Below, in pieces: positions 11,648-41,355 of a DNA stretch of 64,000 bases. Below the pieces are notes generated by a model that was given only the letters and a program-made list of their open reading frames with translations, was not told the origin of the DNA and did not search any database. Both the position numbers and the translations under genes were made by a program. This stretch comes from Candidatus Omnitrophota bacterium (lineage in GTDB: Bacteria; Omnitrophota; Gorgyraeia; JAUYCX01): NCBI GenBank assembly GCA_030692045.1, contig JAUYCX010000037.1, forward strand, positions 1 to 64,000, read 5' to 3'. The first letter of the stretch is position 1. The number at the start of each line of letters is the position of its first letter.

Positions 11648-11929
11648 ATGGACTTAAGTCAAAGATACGCAATAGATATGAACAAGCTAACCTTTAGAAT
11701 TATCGACGCAGAGGCAGTAATCCTTAATCTGGATAATGGGTATTATTATAGTTTAAATGAGACAGGAACTAAGATATGGAATAAGATAAATGATGGCAAG
11801 AATTTAAGCGAAATTCTATCTTCTCTTAAAGCAGAATACCGAATTCCAGAAAATAAATTTAAAAATGACCTTTTAGTTTTAGTTAAGGATTTGGAAAAAG
11901 AAAAGTTGGTTAGACAAAATTCTAAATAA
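11648..11929 (+). CDS. stand-alone PqqD-like (RRE) protein, copy 1
   Basis: A 93-residue PqqD-family domain, the fold that binds leader peptides of ribosomal natural products (RRE). I chose the ATG at 11648 because GAAGGAG lies just before it and the other copies start at the same place. Conserved parts are RIIDAEAVILNLDNGYYYSL, NETGTKIW and a helical C-terminus (LKNDL-like, DLEKEKLV). It is nearly identical to copies at 23199, 28131 and 29316. The MiaB-like radical SAM gene starts 3 bp after its stop, implying coupling. Leader binding is family knowledge, not shown here. Confidence 0.88.
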   Translation: MDLSQRYAIDMNKLTFRIIDAEAVILNLDNGYYYSLNETGTKIWNKINDGKNLSEILSSLKAEYRIPENKFKNDLLVLVKDLEKEKLVRQNSK

Positions 11930-11932
11930 ATA

Positions 11933-13072
11933 GTGCTCTACAAGAAAGCTTTTTTGATTGCTTCAAGAACAGATTGCCTTCCAATGGGAGCTGATTTTGC
12001 TTTGATCAAAGCATATTTGAGAAATAATGGCTGGGCGCTATCAAGAAAAATAAAAACCGCTGACCTCGTCATTGTAAATACATGTGCCGTTGTAAAAGAA
12101 TCTGAAGACGAATCAGTAGCACTTATTAAAAAAGTTCAGAAAAATAAAAATAGAAGCGCACAAATGTTAATAACAGGCTGCCTGCCGTCTATTAATAAAA
12201 ACAGGCTTAAGCAGGTATTTAATGGGACAGCAGTAAGCCCAAATTCCTTTCAAGAATTAGACAAGATATTAAATACAAAATCGAGTATAAGCGAAATTAA
12301 ATATACGGGCTCTTTGCGCAAACTTAAGAAGAATAAATATGCTGAGTATCGCTTGAGAATAGGCTGGGGTTGTCAGGGAAAATGCAGCTATTGTGCAGTA
12401 AGATTTGTTTTTGGCAAACCCCGCAGTAGGCCGATCTTAGACATCCTTAAGGAATACGATATTGCCTATAATAAAGGCTACAGAAGATTTATTTTGATAG
12501 CGAATGACAGCGGAACCTACGGTGAAGATTTGAATATTTCACTCGCTCATCTTCTCGACAAGCTTTGCCAAAAATATAAGGAATGCCGGTTTGCATTATC
12601 GCATTTAACTCCCAATAAACTAAAGGAAATGCTGCCATCGCTTGAGAGATTCATTCGTCAAGACAAGATATGGCGTATCTATGTACCTGTGTGTTCAGGC
12701 AGTAAAAGAATACTTAAACTAATGAATAGGTCCTATGATTTAAATGATTTTAAATATTGTGTAACAAGACTAAGAAATTGCAATCCCAATCTCGAGATAA
12801 AAACTCTATTTCTGGTCGGACTTCCTTCAGAAACAGAAAAAGATTTTTTAGATAGTCTGAAATTAGCAGAGTGGTTAATCAGTAACAATGTTGTTACTGA
12901 TTGCATTGCTTATTCCTCAAGACCCAATACAGAGGCAAGTCAAATGCCTAATCAGATAGATTCGCAAATTAAACAAGAACGCTTAAAGCGTCTGAGTATA
13001 TTATGTAGTTTTTTTAATTCACTTAACAATAATAAGGAAGAATTACTTGGAATATCCAACAAAATTTCCTGA
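11933..13072 (+). CDS. MiaB-like radical SAM protein without TRAM domain
   Basis: A 379-residue radical SAM protein starting with GTG. The N-terminal UPF0004-type domain keeps three Cys at the expected places (TDCLPMGAD, VNTCAVV, TGCLP), and the radical SAM motif is GCQGKCSYCAV (about residues 145-155). Methylthiotransferases of this family bind two 4Fe-4S clusters and insert sulfur into tRNA or ribosomal protein S12. The usual C-terminal RNA-binding TRAM domain is missing; the protein ends with a short helical tail. Placed directly after a PqqD-like gene, it may act on a peptide. That target is inference. Confidence 0.82.
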   Translation: MLYKKAFLIASRTDCLPMGADFALIKAYLRNNGWALSRKIKTADLVIVNTCAVVKESEDESVALIKKVQKNKNRSAQMLITGCLPSINKNRLKQVFNGTAVSPNSFQELDKILNTKSSISEIKYTGSLRKLKKNKYAEYRLRIGWGCQGKCSYCAVRFVFGKPRSRPILDILKEYDIAYNKGYRRFILIANDSGTYGEDLNISLAHLLDKLCQKYKECRFALSHLTPNKLKEMLPSLERFIRQDKIWRIYVPVCSGSKRILKLMNRSYDLNDFKYCVTRLRNCNPNLEIKTLFLVGLPSETEKDFLDSLKLAEWLISNNVVTDCIAYSSRPNTEASQMPNQIDSQIKQERLKRLSILCSFFNSLNNNKEELLGISNKIS

Positions 13073-13091
13073 GGAAATATCGACGGCTATT

Positions 13092-14249
13092 ATGAAACCC
13101 AAAGTAAGCGTCATAGTGCCAGTCTATAATGGAGAAAAGACATTATCCCTTTGCCTTAATTCCCTGATGAATCTTGATTTTCCTAAGCTCGATATGGAAA
13201 TAATTGTTGTAGACAATAACTCAACCGATGCCACCAAGGATATCATAATGTCTTTTCCTGTAAAATATGCATTTGAAAGCAAGAGAAGCCGCGGTGCAGC
13301 TAGAAATAGAGGTATTAAAGAATCTAGTGGTGCGTTTGTTGCTTTTATTGATGCAGATTGCATTGCAGATAAATTATGGCTTAAAAATTTAATAAACGGC
13401 TTTACCAGTGAAATTGTGGGGGGCTGCGGTGGAGAAATTCGTCCTAATAATCCTCAAGCCTGGTTTGAGAAATTTTACGATTTTAAATTTATATTTCCCC
13501 AACAAGCAGGCCTTATTAGTCAGGAGTCATTTCTACCAAATCTTACTACAGCTAATGCCGTTTATATGCGCAAGGTACTAAATGAAGTAGATTATTTTGA
13601 TGATTCTTTTGTTACATTGGAAGATATAGAATTATCATGGAGGGTTTATTTAAAAGGATATCATTTAAATTACGTCCGGGATGCCATAGTTTACTGTAAA
13701 CATTCGGATAGATTGAGCGATTTTTTAATTAAATGGTTTGAGGATGGGTACTATTATTCTTTTTTACGGCAAAAATATGTAGATTTATTTAAAAAGTCTA
13801 TTATCAGCCTGGATGATTGTCTTGAGTTATTTTTTGCACTCTTACAATCTACAAAGGCTTTTTTCATAGCGCTATTTAAGAACAAAAATACATTAGAGAC
13901 CTATTTTATTTATAAGATTATAAGAGGGATGGTCTGGTTTTTGGGAAGAATTTATGGTTTATTAAACATAAAATTAAATAGAGAAGAATTCTTTCCTCAG
14001 CTAAATCCAGATATAGTGCTTTGGCGAATGGTTAATGATGAAGTGGTTATTTCTGAACCTAAGAGAGATTTTCGTTATGTTGTAAATAAAACTGGCGCTA
14101 AAATATGGAGATTGTTAATGGAAAAAAAAGATATTTCAGAGATTATAGATTTAATTTCGGGTGAATATAAAGTTAAAAAAGAAGAAATTAGGGAGGAGGT
14201 TTTAAGCTTTTTTAATGAACTTAAAAATGAAGGATTGACTCCACCTTAG
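13092..14249 (+). CDS. GT2 glycosyltransferase fused to PqqD-like domain, copy 1
   Basis: A 385-residue protein. A GT-A fold glycosyltransferase domain fills about 1-230 (VSVIVPVYNG, DNNSTDATKDII, FIDADCIADKLW with the DxD-like site, EDIELSWRVYLKGY). A hydrophobic amphipathic region follows. The last ~75 residues are a PqqD-like domain (FRYVVNKTGAKIWRLL, then helices ending FFNELKNEG). A TTG at 13047 would add 15 residues; I prefer the ATG at 13092 because relatives start right before VSxIVPVYN. It precedes the first short peptide ORF by 18 bp. Donor and acceptor sugars are unknown. Confidence 0.85.
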   Translation: MKPKVSVIVPVYNGEKTLSLCLNSLMNLDFPKLDMEIIVVDNNSTDATKDIIMSFPVKYAFESKRSRGAARNRGIKESSGAFVAFIDADCIADKLWLKNLINGFTSEIVGGCGGEIRPNNPQAWFEKFYDFKFIFPQQAGLISQESFLPNLTTANAVYMRKVLNEVDYFDDSFVTLEDIELSWRVYLKGYHLNYVRDAIVYCKHSDRLSDFLIKWFEDGYYYSFLRQKYVDLFKKSIISLDDCLELFFALLQSTKAFFIALFKNKNTLETYFIYKIIRGMVWFLGRIYGLLNIKLNREEFFPQLNPDIVLWRMVNDEVVISEPKRDFRYVVNKTGAKIWRLLMEKKDISEIIDLISGEYKVKKEEIREEVLSFFNELKNEGLTPP

Positions 14250-14267: not shown

Positions 14268-14387
14268 ATGAAAGAAAACAATAAAAAAGGAATGAAGCTA
14301 AAAGAAAAATCAAAAAAACCTTACCAAAAACCTACATTGGCTAAATTTAAGCAATTTAAGCAAATTATTGCAACCGGAGCTCCCTAA
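14268..14387 (+). CDS. short precursor-like peptide A (YxxPxL motif)
   Basis: A 39-residue ORF with an AAAGGAGG Shine-Dalgarno site. The N-terminal half is very Lys-rich; then comes PYQKPTLAKFKQFKQIIATG and a final AP. The pattern Y-x-x-P-x-L-x-K-F is shared with the ORFs at 24268, 34268, 34431 and 35841, and resembles the leader motif bound by PqqD-like proteins in lasso peptide systems. It lies right behind a glycosyltransferase-PqqD fusion gene. I infer a modified ribosomal peptide; the core would be the short C-terminal part. Confidence 0.68.
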   Translation: MKENNKKGMKLKEKSKKPYQKPTLAKFKQFKQIIATGAP

Positions 14388-14547: not shown

Positions 14548-16710
14548 ATGCAGAAACGCAAATTAGGTAAAACTGGATTGCAAGTTTCCATAATTGGCTT
14601 AGGCAGTAGTGGAATGATGAAAGAGGCAATGAATTCAATCAATACAGAAAGATTGATTAATTATGCATTAGATAAGGGTATTAATTTTATTGAGACTGCT
14701 CGCGCTTATGGCAACAGCGAAGAGAAAATTGGGCAAGCAATACAGAAAAGACGCAGTAGCTGCTACCTTATTTCCAAAACGCTAAGTCGTACAAAAGAAG
14801 CTGCTTTGAAAGACATAGAAATTAGTTTGAATAGATTGAAGACAGAAAAAATCGAGATTTACCAATTACATTATATAACCAATAACTCTGAGTTAGAAAG
14901 AGTTTTGGCTCCAGATGGTGCTTTACAAGCGCTAAAAGAAGCAAAGAATAAAGGTCAAATAGATTTTGTGGGGTTTACTACACACCTAAGAGGCATAGCA
15001 ATTAAGGCTATGCAAACCAATGAGTTTGATACCATTCAAATACCTTATAATCCTATGGAGGTAGAATTCTTTAAAGAAGTAATTTCTCTGGCAAACAAGA
15101 TGGATATAGGAGTTATTGCGATGATGGCTTTAGCAGGTGGCTCGATAAAGGATGTGGATAAAGCACTTAGATTTGTTCTTGCAAAAAATATTTCTACAGT
15201 AACTATTGGCATGGGTTCGATTAAGCATATTAAGTTCAATATTAATGTTAGTAATTCGATAAGAAAATTGTTGCCTACTGATGAAAGTAGTTTCTTTGGT
15301 AGAGTTAGAAAATTTGATAAAGAATTTTGTAGAGAATGTGGCGATTGTGAATCTGTCTGCCCTGTAGATATTCCCATAGCCTATATATCTATGATGAATA
15401 GATATGCCCTGTCTTATAAAAGGCCTTATGGTGATGCGGCAAAAAATTGGTACAGGGGCTTGAAAGTAAAAGCCGAGGTCTGTACTGAATGCCGTGCCTG
15501 TGAGAAGGTATGTCCCTACGGATTAAGGATTCCTGAAATGCTAAACCTTGCTCATCAAAGATTGATGACAAAAGACAAAAGATTTTACAGAAAACTCATA
15601 AGAGCCTCTTCAAATCTTATTAAATTCTTTTTTTCCTCATTTAAATTATCGCTTCCTTTTAGACTATTTAATTCATTTAGAATATTAGGTAGAACAAAAA
15701 GCCTCAGAGAAGCCCACATAAGTATCTTTCCCGAAATAGACACAAGGCTCTCATTTATTAAATCTTTACCGAGAACGCTACAGATTGAATGTACAACAAG
15801 ATGCAATCTAAGTTGTATTATGTGTAACCATACTTATTGGCAAGGTAAACAAAAAGACTTAAGCTTTGAAAATTTTAAGAAGATAATTGACCAATTCCCT
15901 AAACTTTATAAGGTTTGGATGTTAGGTTTTGGAGAGTGCCTACTTAATAAAGATTCCTTAAAGATGTTAAGATATTTAAAGAGTAAGAATATAAAAGTAT
16001 ATTTTATTGATAACTTTACCCTGCTTACAAAAGAGATTGCTCGGGAGTTAATAGAATTAGGAGTTGAACAAATATGGTTTTCTATTGAGAGAACCACAAA
16101 AGAAGCTTATGAAAAGGTTAGGATAGGAGCTTCTTTTGATGAGGTTATGCAAAATGTCAGAAATCTAATGGAACTGAAAAGAGAATTTAAGCAAAAAAAA
16201 CCAGAGCTTAATCTTTATTGCACCGTATCTGATGAGAGTTTTTCTGAAATGCCACATTTAATTGATTTTGCAAGTAATATTGGCGCAAAAGAAGTCGTAT
16301 TTTGTCAGGAGGGTAGCCTTAGTAATCGCAAAGTTCAATTTGATAAACAGCGATTTCTAAATAAATTAGGAGAAATATCTCCAAAGGCTAAATACCAGCA
16401 TATAAAATTAAAAACTATTATCCATCCAGTGATAATCTCAGACTGTCTTCGTCCTTGGACGCCTTTTGTTAGTGTTGACGGCGCTGTAATGTCAGCTTGC
16501 TACTACTTTAGGCAAATTGAATTGGTTGAATTTGGCAACATCTTTGAGAAAAGTTTTAAAGAGATATGGGATTCTAAAGATTATAGAGACTATCGAAGGG
16601 ATGCTCGAAGAGGGAAGGCTGGTTATGTTTGTAAAGATTCAGGCTGTAGAGAAACTTCGTCTTTCTGGAAAACAGGAGTAAATAAGTTCAAAAAAGTATT
16701 GAAGATGTGA
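14548..16710 (+). CDS. aldo-keto reductase / ferredoxin / radical SAM-SPASM fusion
   Basis: A 720-residue three-part protein. Residues 1-240 are an aldo-keto reductase (RKLGKTGLQVSIIGLGSSG, TARAYGNSEEKIG, LISKTL, IYQLHYI with the usual Tyr, Lys and His). About 258-325 are two 4Fe-4S ferredoxin motifs (CRECGDCESVCP, CTECRACEKVCP). About 405-720 are a radical SAM domain (TTRCNLSCIMCNHTYW) with a SPASM-like C-terminus (ACYY, GNIFEKSFKEIW, CKDSGC). AKR-ferredoxin fusions are known; joining them to a radical SAM enzyme is unusual. The reductase half may supply electrons or reduce the product. The substrate is unknown. Confidence 0.85.
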   Translation: MQKRKLGKTGLQVSIIGLGSSGMMKEAMNSINTERLINYALDKGINFIETARAYGNSEEKIGQAIQKRRSSCYLISKTLSRTKEAALKDIEISLNRLKTEKIEIYQLHYITNNSELERVLAPDGALQALKEAKNKGQIDFVGFTTHLRGIAIKAMQTNEFDTIQIPYNPMEVEFFKEVISLANKMDIGVIAMMALAGGSIKDVDKALRFVLAKNISTVTIGMGSIKHIKFNINVSNSIRKLLPTDESSFFGRVRKFDKEFCRECGDCESVCPVDIPIAYISMMNRYALSYKRPYGDAAKNWYRGLKVKAEVCTECRACEKVCPYGLRIPEMLNLAHQRLMTKDKRFYRKLIRASSNLIKFFFSSFKLSLPFRLFNSFRILGRTKSLREAHISIFPEIDTRLSFIKSLPRTLQIECTTRCNLSCIMCNHTYWQGKQKDLSFENFKKIIDQFPKLYKVWMLGFGECLLNKDSLKMLRYLKSKNIKVYFIDNFTLLTKEIARELIELGVEQIWFSIERTTKEAYEKVRIGASFDEVMQNVRNLMELKREFKQKKPELNLYCTVSDESFSEMPHLIDFASNIGAKEVVFCQEGSLSNRKVQFDKQRFLNKLGEISPKAKYQHIKLKTIIHPVIISDCLRPWTPFVSVDGAVMSACYYFRQIELVEFGNIFEKSFKEIWDSKDYRDYRRDARRGKAGYVCKDSGCRETSSFWKTGVNKFKKVLKM

Positions 16711-16719: not shown

Positions 16720-17937
16720 ATGCAGACTAAGAAAGTTAGTATAGTTATTCCAGTATATAACGCAGAGAAGACATTGACATTATGTCTGGATTCTTTAATG
16801 AATTTGGATTATCCCAAGCAAGACTTAGAGATAATTGTGGTTGATAATGGGTCAACCGATAATACTAAAGAATTAATTGTAAGCTACCCTGTAAATTATG
16901 TTTATGAGCCAAAGGTTAAACAGTATAGCGCTGCCCTAAATCGAGGAATACAAATCTCTCAAGGAGAGTTTATAGCCTTTACTCATGGAGATTGTGTGGT
17001 AGAAAGGTTTTGGATATCCAACCTTCTTTCTGGTTTTAAAGATGAGCAAATAGCTGGTTGTGGCGGTAAGATATTGCCTTATAGATTAGATACACCTGCT
17101 CAAAGATACATAGCCAGTAGAACACTGGATTCTCAATTGCAGAATATTTGTTCAAAGGAGAGAATTTTACCTTATATTTTAAACGCTAACGCTATATATA
17201 GACGTAGCGTCCTAGAACAAATAGGTTTTTTTGATGAGTATTTCTCAGAGGATATGGAGCTTGACCTCTGTTGGAGAATCTTTTTAGCAGGTTACATATT
17301 CAATTACACAAAAGCTGCAGTAGTATACCATAGATATAGAGAATCTATTTCTTTGCTATGGAAACAACTGTTTAACATAGCTGTTAACGATCCGCGTTTC
17401 TTTAAAAAATATGATGGTATAATAAGTCCGTTTTATTCTATGTTTTATAGAGAGCCACTTTCTCTTTTAAATAGAATATGTGTTTCTATAAAAGGTTTTT
17501 TAAAATTTCTTATAAGACCACAATCCAATAATAGTTATCCTAGTTTATATTATCTTTTGGATATAATAAGCGCCTTTGCCTTCTTTATAGGTGGACTCTA
17601 CGGCGTTTATTTAAACCAGAGATTAAGAAAATCCCCGCTTCCTTTAAGAAAGGTTAAAAAGATAGTGTATAGAGATTTTGATGATGAGATTGTAGTGATA
17701 AATACATTTACTAAATCTTATTTTTATCTTAATGATGTCTCAGCACAGATATGGCGGAAGTTAAATTCAGGGAATAGGCCAGTTGAAGTAATGGATTATC
17801 TTATCGAGGAGTATGGGATATCCAAGGAACAAGCCAGTCAGGATGTGGATGAATATTTATATGAATTAGCCCAAGCAGGATTATTAAATGAAGAGGATTC
17901 TTTAGTGGAAAATAAGAGTGCGATTGAAAGGCAATAA
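16720..17937 (+). CDS. GT2 glycosyltransferase fused to PqqD-like domain, copy 2
   Basis: A 405-residue protein of the same design as the gene at 13092. The GT-A domain has KVSIVIPVYNAEKTL, DNGSTDNTKELI, THGDCVVERFW and EDMELDLCWRIFLAGY, followed by a hydrophobic linker. The PqqD-like domain is about residues 310-390 (DDEIVVINTFTKSYFYL, SAQIWRKL, LAQAGLLNE). In the metal-site loop THGDC replaces the TDADC of the copies at 32009 and 34588, so donor use may differ. A GGGAAGAAG ribosome site precedes the ATG. It is followed by a UDP-galactopyranose mutase-like gene, which may provide its donor. Confidence 0.85.
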   Translation: MQTKKVSIVIPVYNAEKTLTLCLDSLMNLDYPKQDLEIIVVDNGSTDNTKELIVSYPVNYVYEPKVKQYSAALNRGIQISQGEFIAFTHGDCVVERFWISNLLSGFKDEQIAGCGGKILPYRLDTPAQRYIASRTLDSQLQNICSKERILPYILNANAIYRRSVLEQIGFFDEYFSEDMELDLCWRIFLAGYIFNYTKAAVVYHRYRESISLLWKQLFNIAVNDPRFFKKYDGIISPFYSMFYREPLSLLNRICVSIKGFLKFLIRPQSNNSYPSLYYLLDIISAFAFFIGGLYGVYLNQRLRKSPLPLRKVKKIVYRDFDDEIVVINTFTKSYFYLNDVSAQIWRKLNSGNRPVEVMDYLIEEYGISKEQASQDVDEYLYELAQAGLLNEEDSLVENKSAIERQ

Positions 17938-17938
17938 A

Positions 17939-19099
17939 ATGAAAGTGGTGATACTCGGTGGAGGGTTGGCTGGCTGTACTATGGGCTATTTGCTATGCCG
18001 CGAAGGATATGAAGTAATCATAGTTGAGAAGGAAATGCAGTTAGGTGGTATGTGCCGAACCTTCTATAAAGATAGCTTGGGTTATGAAATAGGACCTCAT
18101 ATTATATATACTAATAGCAAAGAAACGATAAGTTTTATAAAGAGATTCATTGATATTGTTCCTAACGCACTTTATTTAGGAACCCAAATTGATGGAGAAA
18201 TACTAAGTTATCCATTACACATTGATGATATTGCTAAACTTAAAGATTCAGATAAGGTAATAAATGAGCTTACCCATCTTAATTCAAATGAACCTAATTA
18301 TACTAATTTTGAGACATATATGACTTCAACTGTAGGAAAGACTCTCTATGAATTATTCTATTACAATTACACAAAGAAATTCTGGAATATTGAACCCCAA
18401 AGGTTATCTTCGTCTTGGGCAAAAACAAGAAAGAGCCAATTGGTCTTAAGAAAAGACAAGGATAAGAGTGCCTTTCAAGTAAAATATCAAGGCTATCCTA
18501 AAACCGATTACAATGACCTAATTACTAAATTATCTAAAAGTTGCAAGGTCGTTAGAGGAACTGTAGAGAACTTTATTGGTGAGCCCATAGTTAATGGGGA
18601 ACACATTAAGGGAGATTTTTATATTAATACATTGTCTTTGGATGATTTATTTTCTCAAAGATTTGGTCGGCTCTCTTATCGAGGAATAAAACAAGAGATT
18701 GAAATTTTAAATCAGGAACATTATTTTAAAGATTATGCTTGGGTCTATTACCCTGATAATGGTTTTGATTATACCCGTATATGCGAGTATAAACATATAA
18801 ATCTAAAATCTAATCCAAGGACTTTAATCGCTAAGGAATTACCCACAGATGCGAAACATTACCCATTTTATAGCCAAGAGACAGAAAATATTTTTAATAA
18901 GTATATTGAATATTTATCCGGGTTTAATAATTTGGTTTCTCTTGGCAGGTTAGGTCTATATATTTACACTACTATGGGAGTTACTATCAGGATGTGCTTT
19001 GAAATAAAAAATCTTATAAAAAGTTATGCAAAATTAGATAAAGAACAAAAAAATAAAGAACATATGAAGATTAGGGCAATAGCAGAAAAGGGCGAATAG
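17939..19099 (+). CDS. UDP-galactopyranose mutase-like flavoprotein
   Basis: A 386-residue FAD protein. The dinucleotide-binding start is KVVILGGGLAGCTMGYLL; other family features are EKEMQLGGMCRT, GPHIIYTNS, ILSYPLHID, YYNYTKKFWNI, TRICEYKHIN and GRLGLYIYTTMG. These match Glf-type mutases, which interconvert UDP-galactopyranose and UDP-galactofuranose. I chose the ATG at 17939 because the Rossmann motif begins there; a longer frame from 17918 adds seven unlikely residues. Sequence divergence leaves the exact sugar open. It points to furanose sugars as a donor for the nearby glycosyltransferases. Confidence 0.8.
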   Translation: MKVVILGGGLAGCTMGYLLCREGYEVIIVEKEMQLGGMCRTFYKDSLGYEIGPHIIYTNSKETISFIKRFIDIVPNALYLGTQIDGEILSYPLHIDDIAKLKDSDKVINELTHLNSNEPNYTNFETYMTSTVGKTLYELFYYNYTKKFWNIEPQRLSSSWAKTRKSQLVLRKDKDKSAFQVKYQGYPKTDYNDLITKLSKSCKVVRGTVENFIGEPIVNGEHIKGDFYINTLSLDDLFSQRFGRLSYRGIKQEIEILNQEHYFKDYAWVYYPDNGFDYTRICEYKHINLKSNPRTLIAKELPTDAKHYPFYSQETENIFNKYIEYLSGFNNLVSLGRLGLYIYTTMGVTIRMCFEIKNLIKSYAKLDKEQKNKEHMKIRAIAEKGE

Positions 19100-20518: not shown

Positions 20519-20549
20519 AAGAATCGTAGCCAATAGTGCACACCATAAT

Positions 20550-23198: not shown

Positions 23199-23480
23199 AT
23201 GAGTACAGCTAAAAGATACAAAATAGATAAGGACAAGATAACCTACCGCATCATTGACGCTGAGGCGGTAATCTTAAACTTGGATAATGGCTATTATTAT
23301 AGTTTAAATGAGACAGGAACAAAGATATGGAAGCATATAAATGATGGCAAGAATTTAAGCGAAATTCTTGACTCTCTTAAAACAGAATTCCAAATTCCGG
23401 AAAATAAATTAAAAAATGACCTTTTTGGATTAATTAAAGATTTGGAAAAAGAAGAACTGGTTAAATGTAATTCTAAATAG
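23199..23480 (+). CDS. stand-alone PqqD-like (RRE) protein, copy 2
   Basis: A 93-residue PqqD-like protein nearly identical to the copy at 11648 over RIIDAEAVILNLDNGYYYSL, NETGTKIW and ENKLKNDL; the N-terminus (MSTAKRYKIDKDKITY) differs most. A CAGGAGG ribosome site lies 7 bases before the ATG. A methyltransferase gene starts 11 bp downstream and a short peptide ORF follows that, so this copy may serve peptide B at 24268. Confidence 0.88.
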   Translation: MSTAKRYKIDKDKITYRIIDAEAVILNLDNGYYYSLNETGTKIWKHINDGKNLSEILDSLKTEFQIPENKLKNDLFGLIKDLEKEELVKCNSK

Positions 23481-24271: not shown

Positions 24272-24372
24272 ATAAAAGAAATGAAATGCCAAAAAGCACA
24301 AAGGGTAAGAAAGAATACCAGAAACCTCAACTAAAAAGATTTAAAGGTTTAAGAAAAATAGTAGCAACGTAA
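24268..24372 (+). CDS. short precursor-like peptide B (YxxPxL motif)
   Basis: A 34-residue ORF, the shortest of the five, with a GAAGGAGG ribosome site. After a Lys-rich start it has EYQKPQLKRFKGLRKIVAT and ends there. The Y-x-x-P-x-L-x-R-F element and the following RKI match peptides C and D (L/V-R-K-[MI]). It overlaps the methyltransferase gene by 4 bp. With almost nothing after the conserved part, the core, if any, would lie within the conserved tail, which makes this member informative. Confidence 0.65.
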   Translation: MNKRNEMPKSTKGKKEYQKPQLKRFKGLRKIVAT

Positions 24373-29344: not shown

Positions 29345-29597
29345 TAAAGACAGCATAACCTATAGAATTATCGATGGGGAGGCAGTAATTCTTAATTTGG
29401 ATAATGGATATTATTATAGTTTAAATAAGACAGGAACTAAGATATGGAATAAGATAAATGATGGCAATAATTTAAACGAAATTCTATTCTCTCTTAAAAC
29501 AGAATTCCAAATTCCAGAAAATAAATTAAAAAACGACCTTTTAGGTTTAGTTAAGGATTTGGAAAAAGAAAAGTTGGTTGGACAAAATTCTAAATAA
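29316..29597 (+). CDS. stand-alone PqqD-like (RRE) protein, copy 4
   Basis: A 93-residue PqqD-like protein, again nearly identical to the others (ITYRIIDGEAVILNLDNGYY, NKTGTKIWNKIN). Differences include Gly for Ala in the first block and Lys for Glu in NKTG. Its start lies inside the nucleotidyltransferase gene. The bases after its stop repeat those after copy 1 (AAATTCTAAATAAATAG, then GCGCTCTATAAGAAA). It precedes the cobalamin radical SAM gene by 38 bp, as copy 1 precedes the MiaB-like gene, which suggests one RRE per radical SAM enzyme. Confidence 0.88.
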   Translation: MNLTHRYQINKDSITYRIIDGEAVILNLDNGYYYSLNKTGTKIWNKINDGNNLNEILFSLKTEFQIPENKLKNDLLGLVKDLEKEKLVGQNSK

Positions 29598-33247: not shown

Positions 33248-34263
33248 AATTCGAGAAAAGTATTTTCGCCTTAATTAATAAGGTAGAAAAGGCAAATATG
33301 CCTTTTAATGTGGAATGGGAGTTAACCAATCGCTGTAATTTAGATTGTTTGCACTGCTTAAGAGATAGAAGAACAGATAATGAATTATCAACTGAGGAAA
33401 TAAAAGATATCTTCCTTCAGTTAAGAAAAGAGAATTGTTTTAATCTAACTTTTACCGGAGGAGAGGCTTTTTTAAGAAAAGATTTATTTGAAATCCTACA
33501 TTTTGCCAAGAAATTAGAATTTGCCATAAGTGTTTATTCAAATGGTACCTTGCTAAATGAAAAAGATATCAAGCTTCTTAAGAAGCTTAACCTTGCGGCA
33601 GTACAAATTAGCCTTTATGGAGCCACTAAAGAAGTTCATGATTCCATAACCAGAGTAAGGGGCTCTTTTGATAAGACAATGAGTGCAATTCGGCTTTTAA
33701 AAAAGCATAAGGTTCCCTTTAGTATTGTCACAATGGCATTTAATAGAAACTTTTCTGAATTAAGACAGATTAGAAAGATGGCTAAGCAAAATAAATGGGA
33801 TATCCTGTTTGATTTTGTGATTTATCCGGCTCTTCAGGGTGATAATTCTCCTCTTTGTTTAAGGACAACAAGTGAACAATTAGGCTTAGCCTTTAAATAT
33901 AAACTATCTTCTTGGCGAGAAGATAGGGTAGGAATGTTTAAGAAAGCGCCGCCCATCGGCTTTAAAAGCTTAAGTGGCCTGCATTTGTCTTCCGCTGGTA
34001 AAGTATATCCCTCGGTTTTATTGCGTATTGAAATAGGTGATTTGCGTAAGGATACATTTCATAATATCTGGCACAATTCGCCTAAGTTAAAGTGGCTGCG
34101 TAGCTTAGTCAAGGAAGATTTTGAGTGCTTTCATTGTAAATGGTATAATGATTGTTGTTGGAAGATTGAGATGGCTTATTTAGAGCAGGGCGATCTTTTC
34201 ACTGCCCCAAAAGAAATTTGCAGAATAAACCGGATATTCCATGAATATAAGCAAAGGAGGTAA
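33244..34263 (+). CDS. radical SAM/SPASM peptide-modifying enzyme candidate
   Basis: A 339-residue radical SAM protein. TNRCNLDCLHCLRDRRTDNE (about 27-46) binds the SAM cluster; NLTFTGGEAFLRKDL and ISLYGATKEVHDSITRVRGS are core motifs. The C-terminus (CFHCKWYNDCCW, then a final Cys in APKEICRINR) is SPASM-like. This is the overall design of PqqE- and sactipeptide-type enzymes. The peptide C ORF begins 4 bp after its stop and its last codons contain that peptide's AAAGGAGG site, making it the strongest enzyme-precursor link in the island. Confidence 0.87.
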   Translation: MKFEKSIFALINKVEKANMPFNVEWELTNRCNLDCLHCLRDRRTDNELSTEEIKDIFLQLRKENCFNLTFTGGEAFLRKDLFEILHFAKKLEFAISVYSNGTLLNEKDIKLLKKLNLAAVQISLYGATKEVHDSITRVRGSFDKTMSAIRLLKKHKVPFSIVTMAFNRNFSELRQIRKMAKQNKWDILFDFVIYPALQGDNSPLCLRTTSEQLGLAFKYKLSSWREDRVGMFKKAPPIGFKSLSGLHLSSAGKVYPSVLLRIEIGDLRKDTFHNIWHNSPKLKWLRSLVKEDFECFHCKWYNDCCWKIEMAYLEQGDLFTAPKEICRINRIFHEYKQRR

Positions 34264-34267: not shown

Positions 34268-34408
34268 ATGGAAAACAAAAAGCAAACAAATAAGAATTCC
34301 AAGACCAAAGAAAAGTTCGAACCTTACGAGATGCCCAGATTAACCAAGTATCCCAAGGTAAGGAAGATGTACGGTCAAAGCGGGATCCTACCAGGACCAG
34401 GGGTATAG
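34268..34408 (+). CDS. short precursor-like peptide C (YxxPxL motif)
   Basis: A 46-residue ORF with an AAAGGAGG site, the longest of the five. The Lys/Asn-rich N-terminus is followed by PYEMPRLTKYPKVRKMYG and then a distinct tail QSGILPGPGV. The tail is the most obvious candidate core: hydrophobic, Gly/Pro-rich and unlike the other members. It follows the SPASM radical SAM gene by 4 bp and shares its first residues (MENKKQ) with peptide D. Confidence 0.7.
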   Translation: MENKKQTNKNSKTKEKFEPYEMPRLTKYPKVRKMYGQSGILPGPGV

Positions 34409-34430: not shown

Positions 34431-34562
34431 ATGGAAAACAAAAAGCAACCCTATAAGAATTCCAGAGCCAAAGAAAAGCTTGAATCTTATGAAAAGCCTA
34501 GCTTAATAAAATATACTAATTTAAGAAAGATACATACAGTTAGCGCAGTCGGCGCAGCATAA
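34431..34562 (+). CDS. short precursor-like peptide D (YxxPxL motif)
   Basis: A 43-residue ORF after an AGAGGAG site. It opens MENKKQPYKNS like peptide C, then has SYEKPSLIKYTNLRKIHTVS and ends AVGAA. The conserved element aligns with the other four and the C-terminal tail varies. C and D look like a tandem duplication with divergent ends, as expected for leader plus variable core. Confidence 0.7.
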   Translation: MENKKQPYKNSRAKEKLESYEKPSLIKYTNLRKIHTVSAVGAA

Positions 34563-34587: not shown

Positions 34588-35784
34588 ATGAGACTGACAG
34601 ATTATCTAAGTTCTAATCATTCTCTCCTTGTCTCCGTAATCATCCCAGTTTATAACGGCAATAAAACCCTTTGCTCCTGCCTTGACTCTCTAATGCAACT
34701 TAACTTCCCCAAAGAAGACAGAGAGATAATTGTTGTAGATAACCACTCCACAGATAATACCAAGGAAATTATTAGTCAATATCCAGTAAAGTATGTCTTT
34801 GAACCTAAGAGAGGAAGAGGCAAAGCCAGAAACGCCGGCATTAGAGCCTCTTTGGGTAAATATATTGCCTTTACCGACGCAGATTGCGTTGTTGATAAGT
34901 TATGGCTTAAAAACCTCATAAAAGGATTTACCAGTGATACTGTGGCAGGTTGCGGTGGCGAGGTTTCTTCGTGTGAGCCAAAAACCTTAATAGAAAAATA
35001 TTATCACTATAGAAATATTTATTCTCAAAAGAATGGCCTTATTAAGCCGAGAGCAATATTGCAAAGGATTGCTACTTATAATGCAATCTATCGCAGGCAA
35101 GTTTTAGAAGAGGTAGGTTTATTTGACAGTTTATTTATTACTAATGAAGATGTAGATTTATCTTGGCGGATTTTTTTAAAGGGATATCAATTAAATTATG
35201 TTCCAGAGGCAAAGGTATACCATAAATATCGAGATAGACTATCTGATTTTTTTAAGCAATTCTTTGAGTATGGTTATACGCGTAGTTATTTATTACAAAA
35301 ACATAAATATTCAATTAAAAAGCCTGTGGTAAGTTTCAATGATGGGATTAGTTTCTTTCTTATACAATTAAAGACAATAAAATCTTTGTTTATGACTATC
35401 TTTGCAAAGAACAATATATCAGAGAAGGGTTTTTTTATTTTGGATATGGTAAGAGAAACGGCCCTCCTCTTAGGAAGAATTTATGGCTTGATAGGCTTAA
35501 GGTTGGGAATAGTAAAAATCCCCACCGCAAGCTTTAGTTTAAATAATAAACTAATTTGGGGAATAGTTAATGAGAAAGCAGTTGTTTCTAAACCAAGCAG
35601 TGATTTTTATTATACCTTAGATGAGATAGGAACTAAAATCTGGTCGTTGCTTTTAGAAGCAAAAAAGATACCTGATATCGTAGATACAATTGCCAATGAC
35701 TTTGAAGCTGATAAAGAGGAAATAAAAGCTCATCTTATGGATTTTATAGATGAGCTTAAAAAAGAGGACTTACTAAAACATTGA
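34588..35784 (+). CDS. GT2 glycosyltransferase fused to PqqD-like domain, copy 5
   Basis: A 398-residue fusion protein. GT-A motifs are VSVIIPVYNGNKTLCSCLDS, DNHSTDNTKEIISQYPVKYV, FTDADCVVDKLW and NEDVDLSWRIFLKGYQLNYV. The PqqD-like domain (about 318-398) has FYYTLDEIGTKIWSLL and LMDFIDELKKEDLLKH. Its N-terminal half shares near-identical DNA with the gene at 32009, and its later GT part resembles that at 13092, as if by gene conversion. It stands between peptides D and E. Confidence 0.86.
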   Translation: MRLTDYLSSNHSLLVSVIIPVYNGNKTLCSCLDSLMQLNFPKEDREIIVVDNHSTDNTKEIISQYPVKYVFEPKRGRGKARNAGIRASLGKYIAFTDADCVVDKLWLKNLIKGFTSDTVAGCGGEVSSCEPKTLIEKYYHYRNIYSQKNGLIKPRAILQRIATYNAIYRRQVLEEVGLFDSLFITNEDVDLSWRIFLKGYQLNYVPEAKVYHKYRDRLSDFFKQFFEYGYTRSYLLQKHKYSIKKPVVSFNDGISFFLIQLKTIKSLFMTIFAKNNISEKGFFILDMVRETALLLGRIYGLIGLRLGIVKIPTASFSLNNKLIWGIVNEKAVVSKPSSDFYYTLDEIGTKIWSLLLEAKKIPDIVDTIANDFEADKEEIKAHLMDFIDELKKEDLLKH

Positions 35785-35840: not shown

Positions 35841-35954
35841 ATGGAGCAAAATAAAAAAGAAACTAAAAAAAAGCCAGAAAAAGAAAAAAAGGCTTATCAA
35901 AAGCCAACACTGAATAAGTTTAAAAAGATAGAAGTTATTGCTTTTTGTCCTTAA
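35841..35954 (+). CDS. short precursor-like peptide E (YxxPxL motif)
   Basis: A 37-residue ORF with an AAGGGGAGG ribosome site and its own promoter. The N-terminal 18 residues are almost all Lys and Glu; then comes AYQKPTLNKFKKIEVIAFCP, the end. Of the five it is the only one with a Cys, in the penultimate position. The HPr-kinase-like gene starts 12 bp downstream, followed by a methyltransferase and an ABC exporter, so this peptide heads a likely tailoring and export operon. Confidence 0.7.
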   Translation: MEQNKKETKKKPEKEKKAYQKPTLNKFKKIEVIAFCP

Positions 35955-35966: not shown

Positions 35967-36983
35967 ATGCCCCCATTAGTCATAAATATATTATTAATGC
36001 AGGATTCCAAATTCCAGACCTCATTTCAGCTTCATAATATCAAGTTTGAAATAATTTCCAATAGTAAATTCCTTTTAAAACTAATTAATGGCTCTTTCAA
36101 ATCCTTAAAATGTCTTCATAGAGAAAAAATAGATTTTACCCTAACTTATCATCTAAAAGCAGTAGAAGATTATAAACAGATTCCTGTTTTACCAGAGGAC
36201 GGTTTTATTCAATTACCTTTATTTCAACAAGAATATTTAAAAGATAATAAGTTATGTCTTATTGCTGGATTAAGAACAATAAGAATTAGCGTTACCCCTC
36301 AGAAAAATTTAATAGAAGTATATGTAGTCTCTGGGCAAAAAATAGATAATGATTTGCTTTTTGATTTAATCTTCTTTCAGCCTCTTAAGTTTTTATTAGG
36401 GTTTCATAAATTATATCTTTTGCACTCATCTTGTGTAGCTAGAGATTCTCAAGCCATTCTTTTCCCGGGGCAATCCGAGTCTGGTAAGAGTATACTTGCT
36501 TTAAGCTTAGTACGAAATGGTTTCAAATATATTTCTGATGATGATACAATTCTTAGGCAAAATGGCAATCAAATAGAGTGTCTTTCATTTCCCACAGAAA
36601 TAAAGATTAAAAATAGTCTGATTAAGTACTTCCCTGAGATAAAAAAGAAATTCTTAAGTCCCACTCATAAAACCTCAAAAAGAAAAATTGACATACAAAA
36701 GGTTTATCCGGGCAGTGTAGAAGATAATGCTATTCCAAGATTGATAATCTTTCCTAAATTTAGAGAGGCGTCAAAAACAGAAATCAAACCTGTATCCAAA
36801 AAAGAAGCCCTGCATTACCTTATAAAAGATGACTTTAAAGCATTTAGAGGTCAATACGAAGAGATTGCAAAGCAACATTTTCAGATATTATCTAATTTAG
36901 TTCAACAGGCAAAAACCTATCAACTTTTTTATAAAGATTGTGATATTAACAAAATTCCTAAAATAGTAAGTAGCCTATTATAA
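35967..36983 (+). CDS. HPr-kinase-like (HprK-fold) protein
   Basis: A 338-residue protein with a C-terminal kinase-like half: YLLHSSCVARDSQAILFPG, Walker A PGQSESGKSILALSLV (about 167-182), and acidic YISDDDTIL. HPr kinases phosphorylate a Ser of HPr; shorter relatives occur in lasso peptide clusters, where some phosphorylate the peptide, and beside PqqD-like genes. The N-terminal half is specific to this subgroup. The start could also be the ATG at 35997. Lying next to peptide E, peptide or sugar phosphorylation is a fair inference; peptide E itself has Thr but no Ser. Confidence 0.78.
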   Translation: MPPLVINILLMQDSKFQTSFQLHNIKFEIISNSKFLLKLINGSFKSLKCLHREKIDFTLTYHLKAVEDYKQIPVLPEDGFIQLPLFQQEYLKDNKLCLIAGLRTIRISVTPQKNLIEVYVVSGQKIDNDLLFDLIFFQPLKFLLGFHKLYLLHSSCVARDSQAILFPGQSESGKSILALSLVRNGFKYISDDDTILRQNGNQIECLSFPTEIKIKNSLIKYFPEIKKKFLSPTHKTSKRKIDIQKVYPGSVEDNAIPRLIIFPKFREASKTEIKPVSKKEALHYLIKDDFKAFRGQYEEIAKQHFQILSNLVQQAKTYQLFYKDCDINKIPKIVSSLL

Positions 36984-37969: not shown

Positions 37970-38764
37970 ATGGAATACGCAATAGATATAATAGGTCTTT
38001 CTAAAGAATTTTATCCTCTGGGAAGGTACTCGATTAAAAACTTTTTTTGTTTAAAAAATAAACCAAATAAAATAGTTGCCTGTTGCGATATCAATCTTAA
38101 AATAAAAAAAGGAGAGCTTTTTGGTCTGGTTGGTCCTAACGGCGCAGGCAAGACAACATTAATCAAAGTTTTGGCAACAATTATCTTACCGGATAGCGGC
38201 AGCGTAAGTGTTAATGGTTATGATTTATTAAGAGATGCTGATTTAGTCAGGTCTTCTATTGGTTTAGTGACCAGCGAAACAAAAAGTTTTTATGGCAGGC
38301 TTACCGGAAGAGAAAATTTATATTTTTTTGCCAACCTCCACAATCTTTTTTCTAAACAGAAGAAAAAAAGGGTAGAGGAATTAGCACAGGTGTTGGGCAT
38401 AGTTGAGGAGCTGGATAAAATGTATCAACAATATTCAACTGGCATGAAACAGCGCTTAGCAATTGTGCGCGGGTTATTAAATGATGCACCAATTTTATTA
38501 ATTGATGAACCAACAAAAAGTTTAGACCCTATAAGCGCCCAGGATTTAAGAAGGTTTATCAAGGATGAATTAGTAGATAAAAGCGGCAAGACAATTATTT
38601 TTAGTAGCCACTCCTTGTCTGAGATTGAAACGCTGTCAGATAGGATAGCTATAATGAGTAAGGGTAGGATTAAAGCCGAGGGTACCTTAGCCAAGTTAAA
38701 AGAGAAAATGGGCCCTTCCTCCCATGTAATTGAAGAGGTTTTTAGCTATTACCTTCAAAGCTAA
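37970..38764 (+). CDS. ABC transporter ATP-binding protein
   Basis: A 264-residue ATPase with Walker A GPNGAGKTTLIK, signature YSTGMKQRLAIV, Walker B ILLIDEPTKSLDP and a switch His in FSSHSLSEIE. It is of the ABC-2/DrrA type and pairs with the permease gene that starts 3 bp downstream. DrrA/NatA-like pumps export drugs, lipids or peptides, and similar ABC modules export lasso and other ribosomal peptides. The likely cargo is the peptide or glycoconjugate of this island. Confidence 0.93.
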   Translation: MEYAIDIIGLSKEFYPLGRYSIKNFFCLKNKPNKIVACCDINLKIKKGELFGLVGPNGAGKTTLIKVLATIILPDSGSVSVNGYDLLRDADLVRSSIGLVTSETKSFYGRLTGRENLYFFANLHNLFSKQKKKRVEELAQVLGIVEELDKMYQQYSTGMKQRLAIVRGLLNDAPILLIDEPTKSLDPISAQDLRRFIKDELVDKSGKTIIFSSHSLSEIETLSDRIAIMSKGRIKAEGTLAKLKEKMGPSSHVIEEVFSYYLQS

Positions 38765-38767: not shown

Positions 38768-39604
38768 ATGCCAAATTATTTTAAATCCTTAATAATATTT
38801 TTTAAAAAGGCATTTGCCTTTATAAGAAGAGACTTTCTTATTCAGACCAGTTACCGCCTGAATTTCTTCGTGCATTGGGCGAGTATTTTGATATCAATAC
38901 TCACGCTGTATTATCTTTCTATGCTCTTTGGTAAACAAGCCAATCCCTATTTAGTTAGTTATGGAGGGGATTATTTTTCTTTTGTTATTATAGGAGTTGC
39001 TGCGGCAAGTTATGTGGGAACATCTCTGAGTAGTTTTTCCTCAACCATTTCACACGAACAATTATGCGGCACATTAGAAATAATGCTCTCAACCCCTACG
39101 AAGATTTCCACGATAGTTTTTTCATTATCGCTTTATAATTTTATATTAGCTACAATTAATGTTCTCATTTATCTAATCATTGGGATATTTTTCTTAGGAT
39201 TAAATTTTACCCATGCCAATCATTTAGCAGTATTCATAATTTTATTCTTAACTATACTTTCCTTATCAAGTATCGGCATAATTTCTGCTGCGTTTACTAT
39301 TTTATTTAAGAAAGGAGACCCTTTGGTTAGTTTAATGTATGGCTTATCGTGGTTTTTAGGAGGTGTGTATTTTCCCGTCACGATATTTCCTAAATATCTT
39401 CAAGTTATTTCTTATTGCTTACCGATTACTTATGCCCTACGTTCTCTTAGGATGGCAATATTTAAGGGTTATTCAGTGAATCTTTTAAGGGGGGATATTA
39501 TAATTTTGCTTTGTTTCTCTGTTGTTCTTTTGCCGCTTAGTTTATTTATTTTTAAATGGTCGATTAGGCTGGCTAAGAAATCCGGTTCCTTAGCTTTCTA
39601 TTAA
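38768..39604 (+). CDS. ABC-2 type transporter permease
   Basis: A 278-residue membrane protein with about six helices, typical of ABC-2 permeases; CGTLEIMLSTPTKISTIVFS is the characteristic cytosolic helix and GGVYFPVTIFPKYLQVISYC the family-like loop near the fifth helix. It forms the transporter with the preceding ATPase. It ends in a 4-bp convergent overlap with the minus-strand gene, closing the plus-strand run of the island. Confidence 0.9.
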   Translation: MPNYFKSLIIFFKKAFAFIRRDFLIQTSYRLNFFVHWASILISILTLYYLSMLFGKQANPYLVSYGGDYFSFVIIGVAAASYVGTSLSSFSSTISHEQLCGTLEIMLSTPTKISTIVFSLSLYNFILATINVLIYLIIGIFFLGLNFTHANHLAVFIILFLTILSLSSIGIISAAFTILFKKGDPLVSLMYGLSWFLGGVYFPVTIFPKYLQVISYCLPITYALRSLRMAIFKGYSVNLLRGDIIILLCFSVVLLPLSLFIFKWSIRLAKKSGSLAFY

Positions 39605-41355
39605 AATAATCTTCCTAAAATTATCCTTCCTAACATTAATAATCTTACTAATAATTTCTTAACTCTAAAATAGTAGCTATGTTTAGGTAAGCCAGATTCT
39701 AATATTTTATAGCGGTAAGAGATGTATTCTTGAGGAGGGAAAATTTGTTTCTTCATATAAATAAGAAACCTTTTTATATCTTTCAATGTGAAAGGCAATT
39801 TACCAAAGACTACGCATAGAGCAATTAGAGGGTTGGGCCACTCAATTTCATAAGGCGTCTTAAAAAGTATACTTTCATAACTGTAAAGATGTTCAAATAG
39901 CCATTTTTTTAATAGATTTGGTTTAAGGGAGTTTAAGATTTCTTGCGCTACATTTACATCCATTTGCTCTTTCAAGATTAAAAGGCTGTAGTATAATATT
40001 GTGTCTATTCTCTTTGACTTTGCCTTAATAATTAATTTCTGCCAATCAATTTTATTTTGATAATGCTGGATAAATTCCCTTAAATCGCAAAACCAAAGTA
40101 AATTACGAAACCCAACGCTAATTAATCGGCAAGAAAGATGTAAAATTTGGTCTTCCAGCGAAAGGCCTAATGTTTCATTGCCAGCTACAACCAAGTCTAA
40201 GGCCTCGTTCCAATAATTATCTGTACTGCTAAAATCAGGAAAATCCAAAATAAAAATATTAAACTTAAACTCTAATCTCGTATCCCTTTTATTCTCATAG
40301 CAAAGCTGGAAGTCAATGGGGCCTCCCATAAGAGTTTCAAGTATCAATGGGTCAAGCCCTCTCTTTTCTTCAAAACCCAATTTTGTGAGTATCTCTTTTA
40401 TCTGCGGCCAGTCAGTTTTTTTTACTAGAATATCCACATCCTTCATTGGGCGTAAAGAGAAATCTTGGTAGATAAGTTCTCCTAATGAACATCCCTTTAG
40501 CATTATGGTTTTTAAGCCACGCGCATTAAATTCTTTAAGTAGTTTAGATATGTCGTCATAAACAGAGGCGGTCTTTAAGAAGCTTTCAGTATAGTTATTT
40601 TTAAGCCTTTCTAAAAAATCCTCTGGAATAAAGTCGGCGTTTAGACTTGAAAGGTTGATATATAAAATAGGCGCAACAGAATTATATTCTGCCAAAATAA
40701 AAAGCCAATCCCAGCTTATACCTTGATTGGCGATTGTCTTAAGAATGGCTATATCTTGATTGGTTATTTCTTTTTGAGAACAGATTTTAAGAAACTCTTT
40801 TTCCAGATGAAGCGATTCCTCTTTTTTCTTAGATAATCTTCTATATTCAGGATTAACAAATTTTGCAATGATTTTCAAAAATTGGCTTTCCAAAAGATTT
40901 ATCAACTTTATAATTATATTTTTATTCAAAGCCTTTGCTTCTTTAAGAAAAGCACGGCCAATTAAAAAATTTGTAAATCGCCAAACTTTAGTTTCAAGGT
41001 TAAGATGGATATCTTTTTTATCTATTTGGACAATTTTCCCCACTAATGAGTTTTTATTCACTGGCAGGTCAAGTTTTTGCGTGTTATCACCTTGAGTAAT
41101 AAAAAAGTTATCATCTTGTAAATATAAAAATCTGTGCGCAATTAAATGCTCATTTAGTTTATAAACTATAATATCTCCGCAGGAAAGATTGTTTAATTGC
41201 ACTTCCTTAAGCAAAATTTTATCGCTTATTTTTAGAATGGGATACATACTGTGACTTACAATTTGTAATTCAGGATGGCGTCCCTTAGCTATGCCCTCTT
41301 TTAGCAGGATAACTACTTCGTCTTTTATGAGGCGTTCTTTTTCATCAATGTTCAT
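39601..41355 (-). CDS. S26 signal-peptidase-like domain fused to nucleotidyltransferase
   Basis: A 584-residue fusion. The N-terminal ~110 residues resemble S24/S26 peptidases of the archaeal/ER signal peptidase type: QIVSHSMYPILKISDKILLK with the presumed catalytic Ser36, GDIIVYKLNEHLIAHRF giving the His, and FITQGDNT. The larger C-terminal part is a nucleotidyltransferase-like family (MLKGCSLGELIYQDFSLRPM, DVDILVKKTDW). I chose the start at 41355 because a promoter lies just ahead of it; a longer frame to 41424 would run through that promoter. Relatives of both domains occur near PqqD-like and HprK-like genes. A maturation or leader-cleaving role is inferred. Confidence 0.75.
   Translation of the reverse strand: MNIDEKERLIKDEVVILLKEGIAKGRHPELQIVSHSMYPILKISDKILLKEVQLNNLSCGDIIVYKLNEHLIAHRFLYLQDDNFFITQGDNTQKLDLPVNKNSLVGKIVQIDKKDIHLNLETKVWRFTNFLIGRAFLKEAKALNKNIIIKLINLLESQFLKIIAKFVNPEYRRLSKKKEESLHLEKEFLKICSQKEITNQDIAILKTIANQGISWDWLFILAEYNSVAPILYINLSSLNADFIPEDFLERLKNNYTESFLKTASVYDDISKLLKEFNARGLKTIMLKGCSLGELIYQDFSLRPMKDVDILVKKTDWPQIKEILTKLGFEEKRGLDPLILETLMGGPIDFQLCYENKRDTRLEFKFNIFILDFPDFSSTDNYWNEALDLVVAGNETLGLSLEDQILHLSCRLISVGFRNLLWFCDLREFIQHYQNKIDWQKLIIKAKSKRIDTILYYSLLILKEQMDVNVAQEILNSLKPNLLKKWLFEHLYSYESILFKTPYEIEWPNPLIALCVVFGKLPFTLKDIKRFLIYMKKQIFPPQEYISYRYKILESGLPKHSYYFRVKKLLVRLLMLGRIILGRLF

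Follow-up and report, generated by a model that had tools for sequence, protein, structure and literature searches.

Can a glycosyltransferase be directed to a ribosomally made peptide by a leader-binding domain of its own? This question is raised by a gene cluster at positions 11,624–41,424 of the window, a 64,000-nucleotide stretch of contig JAUYCX010000037.1 from a Candidatus Omnitrophota bacterium (GCA_030692045.1, a metagenome assembly of 95.7% completeness and 7.5% contamination). Nine PqqD (PF05402) matches, all above the cut-off, lie within 24 kb of the window; five form the C-terminus of family 2 glycosyltransferases (GT2) and four are free proteins. The genome as a whole holds 13 such places, nine of them in this cluster. 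An original prediction, made from the sequence alone, had counted these nine domains, five short peptides with a YxxPxL motif, four radical S-adenosylmethionine (SAM) proteins, two methyltransferases, an HprK-like protein and an ABC exporter, all of which were located, and had proposed a new pathway for a ribosomally synthesized and post-translationally modified peptide (RiPP), with the PqqD-like domains acting as RiPP recognition elements (RREs). The RiPP-type part of this proposal is borne out by the RRE fold with most of its pocket, by precursor-like peptides and by the co-occurrence of fusions and peptides. The cluster is a real RiPP-type locus outside the Bacillota, in which a core resembling that of the linear polyphosphorylated peptides (LPP) is combined with radical SAM tailoring and with multiplied, putatively leader-reading glycosyltransferases. 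Its RRE domains and precursor peptides are the following.

11624..11929, plus strand: free RRE 1 (PF05402, 61.3 bits), opening a module with 11933–13072
13047..14249, plus strand: GT2-RRE fusion 1 (PF00535 102.7 bits, PF05402 49.6 bits; DxD and ED motifs intact)
14268..14387, plus strand: precursor peptide A, putative core ATGAP (YxxPxL, ATG, Shine-Dalgarno sequence)
16720..17937, plus strand: GT2-RRE fusion 2 (domain matches; by motif check HxD, catalytic base altered)
23199..23480, plus strand: free RRE 2 (PF05402, 59.3 bits)
24268..24372, plus strand: precursor peptide B, putative core AT (reading frame begins within the 3' end of the methyltransferase 1 gene)
24679..25848, plus strand: GT2-RRE fusion 3 (HxD, catalytic base altered; PF05402 62.5 bits; modelled by AlphaFold2, see below)
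28131..28406, plus strand: free RRE 3 (PF05402, 64.7 bits)
29316..29597, plus strand: free RRE 4 (PF05402, 53.9 bits)
32009..33247, plus strand: GT2-RRE fusion 4 (of the five, the one that best corresponds to the lone fusion of genomes G187 and G262)
34268..34408, plus strand: precursor peptide C, putative core GQSGILPGPGV, Ser at Y+18 (YxxPxL, ATG, Shine-Dalgarno sequence)
34431..34562, plus strand: precursor peptide D, putative core TVSAVGAA, Ser at Y+18 (YxxPxL, ATG, Shine-Dalgarno sequence)
34588..35784, plus strand: GT2-RRE fusion 5 (with 173.8 bits the best MftF match among the five)
35841..35954, plus strand: precursor peptide E, putative core FCP (YxxPxL, ATG, Shine-Dalgarno sequence)

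Fold and leader pocket of the fused domain

A profile of the free and fused domains retrieved TbiB1 as the first match in the PDB (E 2e-20), followed by PbaB1, TfuB1 and LppB (E 1.4e-8), all of which were crystallised with leaders. The AlphaFold2 model of full-length fusion 3, calculated from 20 sequences, has a mean predicted local distance difference test score (pLDDT) of 87 and displays the order strand-strand-strand-helix-helix-helix at the C-terminus; the fused domain modelled in isolation adopts the same βββ-ααα fold (pLDDT 83). The six best Foldseek matches of the isolated domain are all lasso RRE-leader complexes (TMq 0.76–0.81), with a TMq of 0.79–0.81 and root-mean-square deviations of 1.0–1.4 for the TbiB1-leader complexes and a TMq of 0.76 for TfuB1-leader.

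Thirteen pocket positions described for LppB in the accessible part of the LPP study (PMC13381572) were read across to the fused domains by residue comparison. All five window fusions have a hydrophobic or aromatic residue at positions 32, 39, 56, 60, 74, 78 and 83. Asp70, which in LppB holds the leader tyrosine (PMC13381572), is kept in three of the five as well as in the fused domains of two related loci, L118 and L123. As modelled, the fused domain is an RRE fold with most of the leader pocket kept, the groove, which in an RRE runs between strand three and helix three, being judged by residue comparison, in line with the peptide-binding groove that the original prediction had expected. The RREs of this locus are discussed below as predicted leader binders.

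Precursor peptides

The five YxxPxL open reading frames of the window encode 34–46 amino acids, all with an ATG and a Shine-Dalgarno sequence. With these features required of peptides of 28–70 amino acids, no further YxxPxL peptide was found in the whole 64 kb. The number is above chance: 60 first-order Markov sequences as long as the window contained 0.05 such peptides on average and never more than one, and 77 GT2 loci from other genomes (1.22 Mb) yielded one.

Together with ten peptides from two related genomes, the five approximately share the pattern YxKPxLxK[FY]xKxKRI and end in a short tail that varies. These 15 are the strict-motif matches of three loci; excluded were four incomplete or degenerate copies, of which L118 has three and L123 one, and two motif matches without a start codon in other loci (L121, L124), and among the L118 peptides that were kept one has no in-frame start codon and one only a TTG. 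Among paralogues within one locus, the leader codons Y-1 to Y+14 are conserved at the protein level, with 0.20–0.33 non-synonymous (pN) versus 0.71–0.85 synonymous (pS) differences per site, and the tails have a pN of 0.36–0.74 and a pS of 0.56–0.73. This is the pattern of a leader apparently kept for recognition, followed by a freer core. Situated 18 residues past the motif tyrosine (Y+18) is a serine in nine of the 15 peptides, 14 of which reach that position, a number attained by none of 20,000 tail shuffles; with distinct cores only, it is present in 8 of 14, still unmatched by shuffles, the paralogues not being independent. Within the window this serine is limited to precursors C and D. 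Cysteine is absent from the motif tyrosine onward in 14 of the 15. The putative core boundaries assume a cut site taken from the LPP spacing. Overall, the peptides look like real leader/core precursors.

Conserved cassette and distribution

Two further metagenome assemblies (as are all genomes compared), G187 with locus L118 and G262 with locus L123, whose other end lies in L160/L040, carry a common cassette: an RRE, a GT2-RRE, a radical SAM/SPASM protein, an array of five peptides, an HprK-like protein, an ABC ATPase, an ABC-2 permease and a convergent gene joining an S26 signal peptidase to an NTP-transferase. Hence the co-occurrence of fusions and YxxPxL peptides in other genomes, on which the original prediction had hinged, is seen in all three fusion loci found (window, G187, G262), a small number. 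In each of them the cassette is bounded at the same chromosomal site by two shared genes, 59–60% identical; one flank is a PP-loop gene, which we take to be LarE-like, and the other is presumably BirA-like. Its length is 8.0 kb in G187 and 29.8 kb in the window. Fusion 4 and the L118 fusion form one group in a nine-sequence tree (support 0.997), which fits a later gain of the other fusions without proving the direction. L118 and L123 each possess a single GT2-RRE and no further GT2 or GT4 match in the stretch fetched.

The fusion is rare and was found in 3 of 384 class genomes, two of them from one genus, with up to eight candidates scored per genome. Among plasmids, 5 of 623 records cover at least 80% of the query, all ending at residue 355 (40 of the 623 matches listed); since the RRE part of the query comprises residues 339–397, they stop before most of the RRE. 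The one relative on viral contigs covers residues 4–219 only, and among the best 80 of 425 relatives on genome contigs L040 alone reaches residue 387. L040 was rejected as an independent fusion, as it belongs to the same genome as G262 and its RRE is a free one, next to a GT2 gene that is truncated where the contig ends. A twice-iterated profile scan, which may drift and was applied to loci of mostly 3 kb, was not relied on.

In the phylum, at least 101 of 285 genomes have a PqqD match. Twenty phylum PqqD loci, picked by PqqD score and contig size among the matches listed, contain radical SAM proteins (19 loci), NTP-transferases (18), HprK-like proteins (14), ABC proteins (13) and S26 peptidases (12); RRE, HprK-like protein, S26 and NTP-transferase occur together in six, and up to 10 kb on each side no GT2-RRE fusion was found in any of the 20. 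The corresponding counts in 40 control GT2 loci (the first 40 with a length of 15 kb or more; most belong to other phyla, so phylum was not matched) are 1 for radical SAM proteins, RREs, HprK-like proteins and NTP-transferases each, 0 for S26 and 15 for ABC proteins. Since loci with RRE, radical SAM, HprK-like, S26 and NTP-transferase genes are widespread in the phylum, the window locus looks like a derived branch of that system.

This common phylum system (L164–L183) has candidate precursors that are mostly rich in cysteine. Fifteen [YW]xxPx[LVIF] candidates were found in 11 of the 20 loci, and 13 were left after two likely chance reading frames had been dropped (L169 on the minus strand and L181 at 13586); 12 of the 13 contain at least two cysteines and eight end in serine. 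The kinases of some lasso peptides modify a C-terminal serine, as stated in the accessible text of PMC9266682. Near 11286 of L165, a locus of a different lineage within the phylum, lies a 31-residue candidate precursor ending in VKGY; that 20-kb stretch also contains two GT2 genes. Moreover, the genome of the window holds a second RiPP-like cluster (L120:5746-13272, contig C91) with S26, two radical SAM/SPASM proteins, two RREs, an HprK-like protein, an MsbA-like ABC protein, an NTP-transferase and a cysteine-rich candidate precursor at 11307–11684 on the minus strand.

The GT2 part of the fusions

In all six GT2-RREs tested (five from the window, one from L118) the best NCBIfam model is MftF, at 126–174 bits versus a cut-off of 280; the GT2 parts additionally match enzymes of the EpsD and PgaC/IcaA types. 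Fusions 1, 4 and 5 and the L118 fusion retain intact DxD and ED motifs. All five window fusions are open frames of 389–412 codons. In each, the part linking GT2 to RRE includes a moderately hydrophobic segment (mean of the best 19 residues 1.6–2.1), suggesting that the enzymes are probably membrane-associated.

Other genes of the cluster

The remaining features are listed here.

11933..13072, plus strand: MiaB/RimO-like radical SAM protein, no TRAM listed (PF04055 and PF00919; TIGR00089 236 bits, below the cut-off of 251)
14548..16710, plus strand: aldo-keto reductase/ferredoxin/radical SAM-SPASM fusion (domain and NCBIfam matches)
17918..19099, plus strand: UDP-galactopyranose mutase-like protein, possible sugar donor supply (PF03275, 116 bits)
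23492..24271, plus strand: SAM methyltransferase 1 (PF13649, 64.7 bits)
29636..31981, plus strand: B12-binding radical SAM protein (best NCBIfam model ApyD, 126.9 bits, cut-off 750)
33244..34263, plus strand: radical SAM/SPASM protein, conserved in the cassette
35967..36983, plus strand: HprK-like kinase (TIGR04352 88 bits, cut-off 200; PF07475 22.1, cut-off 33.3), conserved in L118 and L123
37010..37957, plus strand: SAM methyltransferase 2 (PF13649, 58.1 bits)
37970..38764, plus strand: ABC exporter ATPase (PF00005, 109 bits)
38768..39604, plus strand: ABC-2 exporter permease (PF01061, 65 bits)
39601..41424, minus strand: fusion of an archaeal-type S26 signal peptidase (TIGR02228 58.3 bits, above the cut-off of 51.85) and NTP_transf_5 (PF14907, 160.9 bits)

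The minus-strand gene at 39601–41424, a key part of the system, lies at the edge of the range covered by the original prediction and was overlooked there. It encodes a putative leader peptidase plus tailoring enzyme. Single-protein fusions of S26 and NTP-transferase are also found at L118:2881-4635 and L123:3562-5304, and in L164, L168 and L175. The MiaB/RimO-like protein directly behind free RRE 1, with no TRAM match, is perhaps a methylthio- or thioamide-forming peptide enzyme, and the protein at 14548–16710 is unusual in uniting aldo-keto reductase, ferredoxin and radical SAM/SPASM parts in one chain.

One GT4 and two TPR-GT2 genes also lie inside the cluster. An AAA_14/DUF4143 gene and an AbiEi/AbiEii toxin-antitoxin pair are inserted at 19298–23144, and short GT2 N-terminal remnants below the Pfam cut-off at 14390–14503 and 19112–19204 appear to be signs of earlier GT2 gene copies. 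The genes scanned beside the cluster at 44.6–51.4 kb (aminotransferases, tRNA thiolation, NadA) are no capsule locus; from 52 kb on, the window contains a PMT_2 glycosyltransferase, a MatE protein and a polysaccharide deacetylase.

Comparison with known systems

The closest comparison, which the original prediction had overlooked, is the LPP family (Popov et al. 2026, PMC13381572). In the accessible part of that study, the core set consists of a peptidase, a kinase, an NTP-transferase, a discrete RRE and an exporter; the leader motif is YxxPxVLxHQxIxFETxxS with a phosphoserine 18 residues past the tyrosine, loss of the NTP-transferase gave no detectable change, and the family is declared restricted to Bacillota. 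The window locus shares with LPP an SpI-type leader peptidase (archaeal-type by its TIGR02228 score), a discrete RRE (four free PF05402 proteins), a candidate HprK-like kinase (below both profile cut-offs), an NTP-transferase (recognised by PF14907, with LppN itself not the comparator), an exporter, a YxxPx[V/L] leader with a hydrophobic residue at Y+11 and the frequent Ser at Y+18, and the lack of a macrolactam cyclase among the proteins scanned. It differs in its host phylum, in the fusion of peptidase and NTP-transferase, in its radical SAM enzymes and RRE-fused GT2, in its short cores, in a leader consensus without HQ and FET, and in an ABC-2 type pair instead of an MsbA-like exporter.

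The statement of the original prediction that no family of this design had been described does not hold. RRE-glycosyltransferase fusions were named by RRE-Finder in 2020 (PMC7470986) and RRE-PF00535 fusions in its 2025 update (PMC12710340), in the main texts without a mechanism, and the core enzymes are close to LPP. Beyond these papers, the literature matches listed, as far as their accessible text extends, included neither a description of a GT2-RRE system nor a study of such RiPPs in Omnitrophota.

Mycofactocin offers a GT2 acting on a RiPP, with genetics showing that MftF puts glucan on the peptide (PMC7491314, accessible part). However, MftC reaches 117.6 of 265 bits and MftF at most 173.8 of 280 bits in the cluster, and Pfam lists no creatininase or FMN-dehydrogenase domain among the cluster proteins scanned. 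By eye the N-terminus of MftF resembles an RRE, but Pfam finds no PqqD in the two MftF proteins scanned, and an N-terminus profile comparison of three sequences gave 1.8% probability; MftF is therefore not counted as a second RRE-GT fusion. Paeninodin and pseudomycoidin resemble the locus in having a kinase and a nucleotidyltransferase, which phosphorylate serine and add hexose to it (PMC9266682), and [Y/W]xxP leaders (PMC13381572); for pseudomycoidin, the accessible text credits hexose addition to phosphoserine to the nucleotidyltransferase homologue and leaves an alternative open (PMC9266682). As originally predicted, lasso and PQQ core genes are absent from the proteins scanned: Pfam lists neither an Asn synthase-like macrolactam synthetase nor a B2 peptidase domain, and membership in the PQQ family was rejected. 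A glycocin was rejected as well, with SunS at most 34.9 of 350 bits and cysteine absent from the tyrosine onward in nearly all peptides.

Proposed pathway and alternatives

It is probable that the locus produces ribosomal peptides much as LPP loci do, supplemented by GT2 enzymes that bring a leader-binding RRE of their own. An RRE, free or fused to GT2, would hold the YxKPxL leader of each precursor in its groove. Free RREs would team with neighbouring radical SAM, methylthiotransferase-like or methyltransferase enzymes, while the fused, probably membrane-associated GT2 would glycosylate the peptide that is held. The HprK-like kinase may phosphorylate the serine at the third core position, where present; the S26 domain would cut the leader about 15 residues past the motif tyrosine, the linked NTP-transferase would modify the phosphate further, and the ABC-2 pump would export the product. 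In the lineage of the window, a G187-like 8-kb cassette may have grown to 30 kb by addition of modules, giving five GT-RREs and five precursors.

Several observations weigh against this reading. The TIGR04352 score of the HprK-like protein is far below the NCBIfam cut-off, and only three fusion loci were found, two in one genus. In the pocket, Asp70 is replaced by Glu in fusion 1 and by His in fusion 5, the residue at position 63 of the fusions is polar or charged, a trait shared with TbiB1, PbaB1 and TfuB1, and position 33 varies. Leader conservation is partly built in, the peptides having been selected by their Tyr, Pro and Leu, and the tails of G187 also have a pN below pS (0.36, 0.56). Precursors A, B and E lack the Y+18 serine, and their putative cores have just 5, 2 and 3 residues. 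Catalytic motifs are altered in GT2-RREs 2 and 3, and the structures nearest to the full-length model are hyaluronan synthases and TarS, polysaccharide synthases coming first.

The last point leads to a reading that is credible, if rather unlikely, namely that the GT2-RREs dock on the maturation complex via the RRE but glycosylate a lipid carrier or polysaccharide, the peptides being only phosphorylated and modified by radical SAM enzymes. It agrees with the EpsD and PgaC/IcaA matches, the hydrophobic stretch, the embedding of LPP loci in capsule loci in Bacilli (PMC13381572, accessible part), the GT4, mutase-like and TPR-GT2 genes inside the cluster and the PMT_2, MatE and deacetylase genes from 52 kb on. 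However, the scanned neighbours at 44.6–51.4 kb form no capsule locus, MftF is the best model throughout, and L118 and L123 have no other GT2 or GT4 match beside their fusion in the stretch fetched. Peptide GalNAc-T2 stands lower down, within the first 50 structural matches, and the GT2 sequence profile retrieves chondroitin synthase and other GT2 enzymes first from the PDB; with structure and profile matches so mixed, fold alone cannot decide between a peptide and a glycan acceptor. Transfer of the sugar to the peptide is inferred, as part of the preferred pathway.

That the locus is decaying and shuffled, with several fused copies as non-functional leftovers and only an L118-like core active, appears unlikely: the GT2 remnants, the inserted AbiE pair and AAA_14/DUF4143 gene, the altered motifs of fusions 2 and 3 and the very short cores would fit, but every fusion is open with its pocket mostly kept, and all five peptides retain start codon, ribosome-binding site and leader. 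It is very unlikely that precursors A, B and E yield tiny, heavily modified, glycosylated molecules resembling cofactors or signals, as in mycofactocin, rather than peptides for export. Cores of 2–5 residues, a GT2 part closest to MftF and the extra radical SAM, B12-binding radical SAM and methyltransferase genes point that way; against it stand the low MftC score, the lack of creatininase and FMN-dehydrogenase domains among the proteins scanned, a cut site that is assumed and the presence of an exporter. A related idea within the favoured, LPP-like pathway is also doubtful: the GT-RRE may have been copied to five beside five precursors so that each peptide has its own sugar enzyme, the modules with cores of 2–5 residues yielding small glycosylated, sulfur- or methyl-modified molecules, a mycofactocin-like outcome on LPP parts.

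Implications

With RRE-glycosyltransferase fusions and the LPP gene set already known, what looks like a new branch is the combination of an LPP-like core with multiplied GT2-RREs and radical SAM enzymes. The locus extends LPP-like gene sets past Bacillota into a hard-to-cultivate phylum and joins them to radical SAM enzymes, and the compact 8-kb cassette offers a way to test what the final LPP product is. Should the GT2-RREs glycosylate peptides that are bound by their leader, they would provide direct and portable sugar targeting, in which a leader is attached and the enzyme follows.

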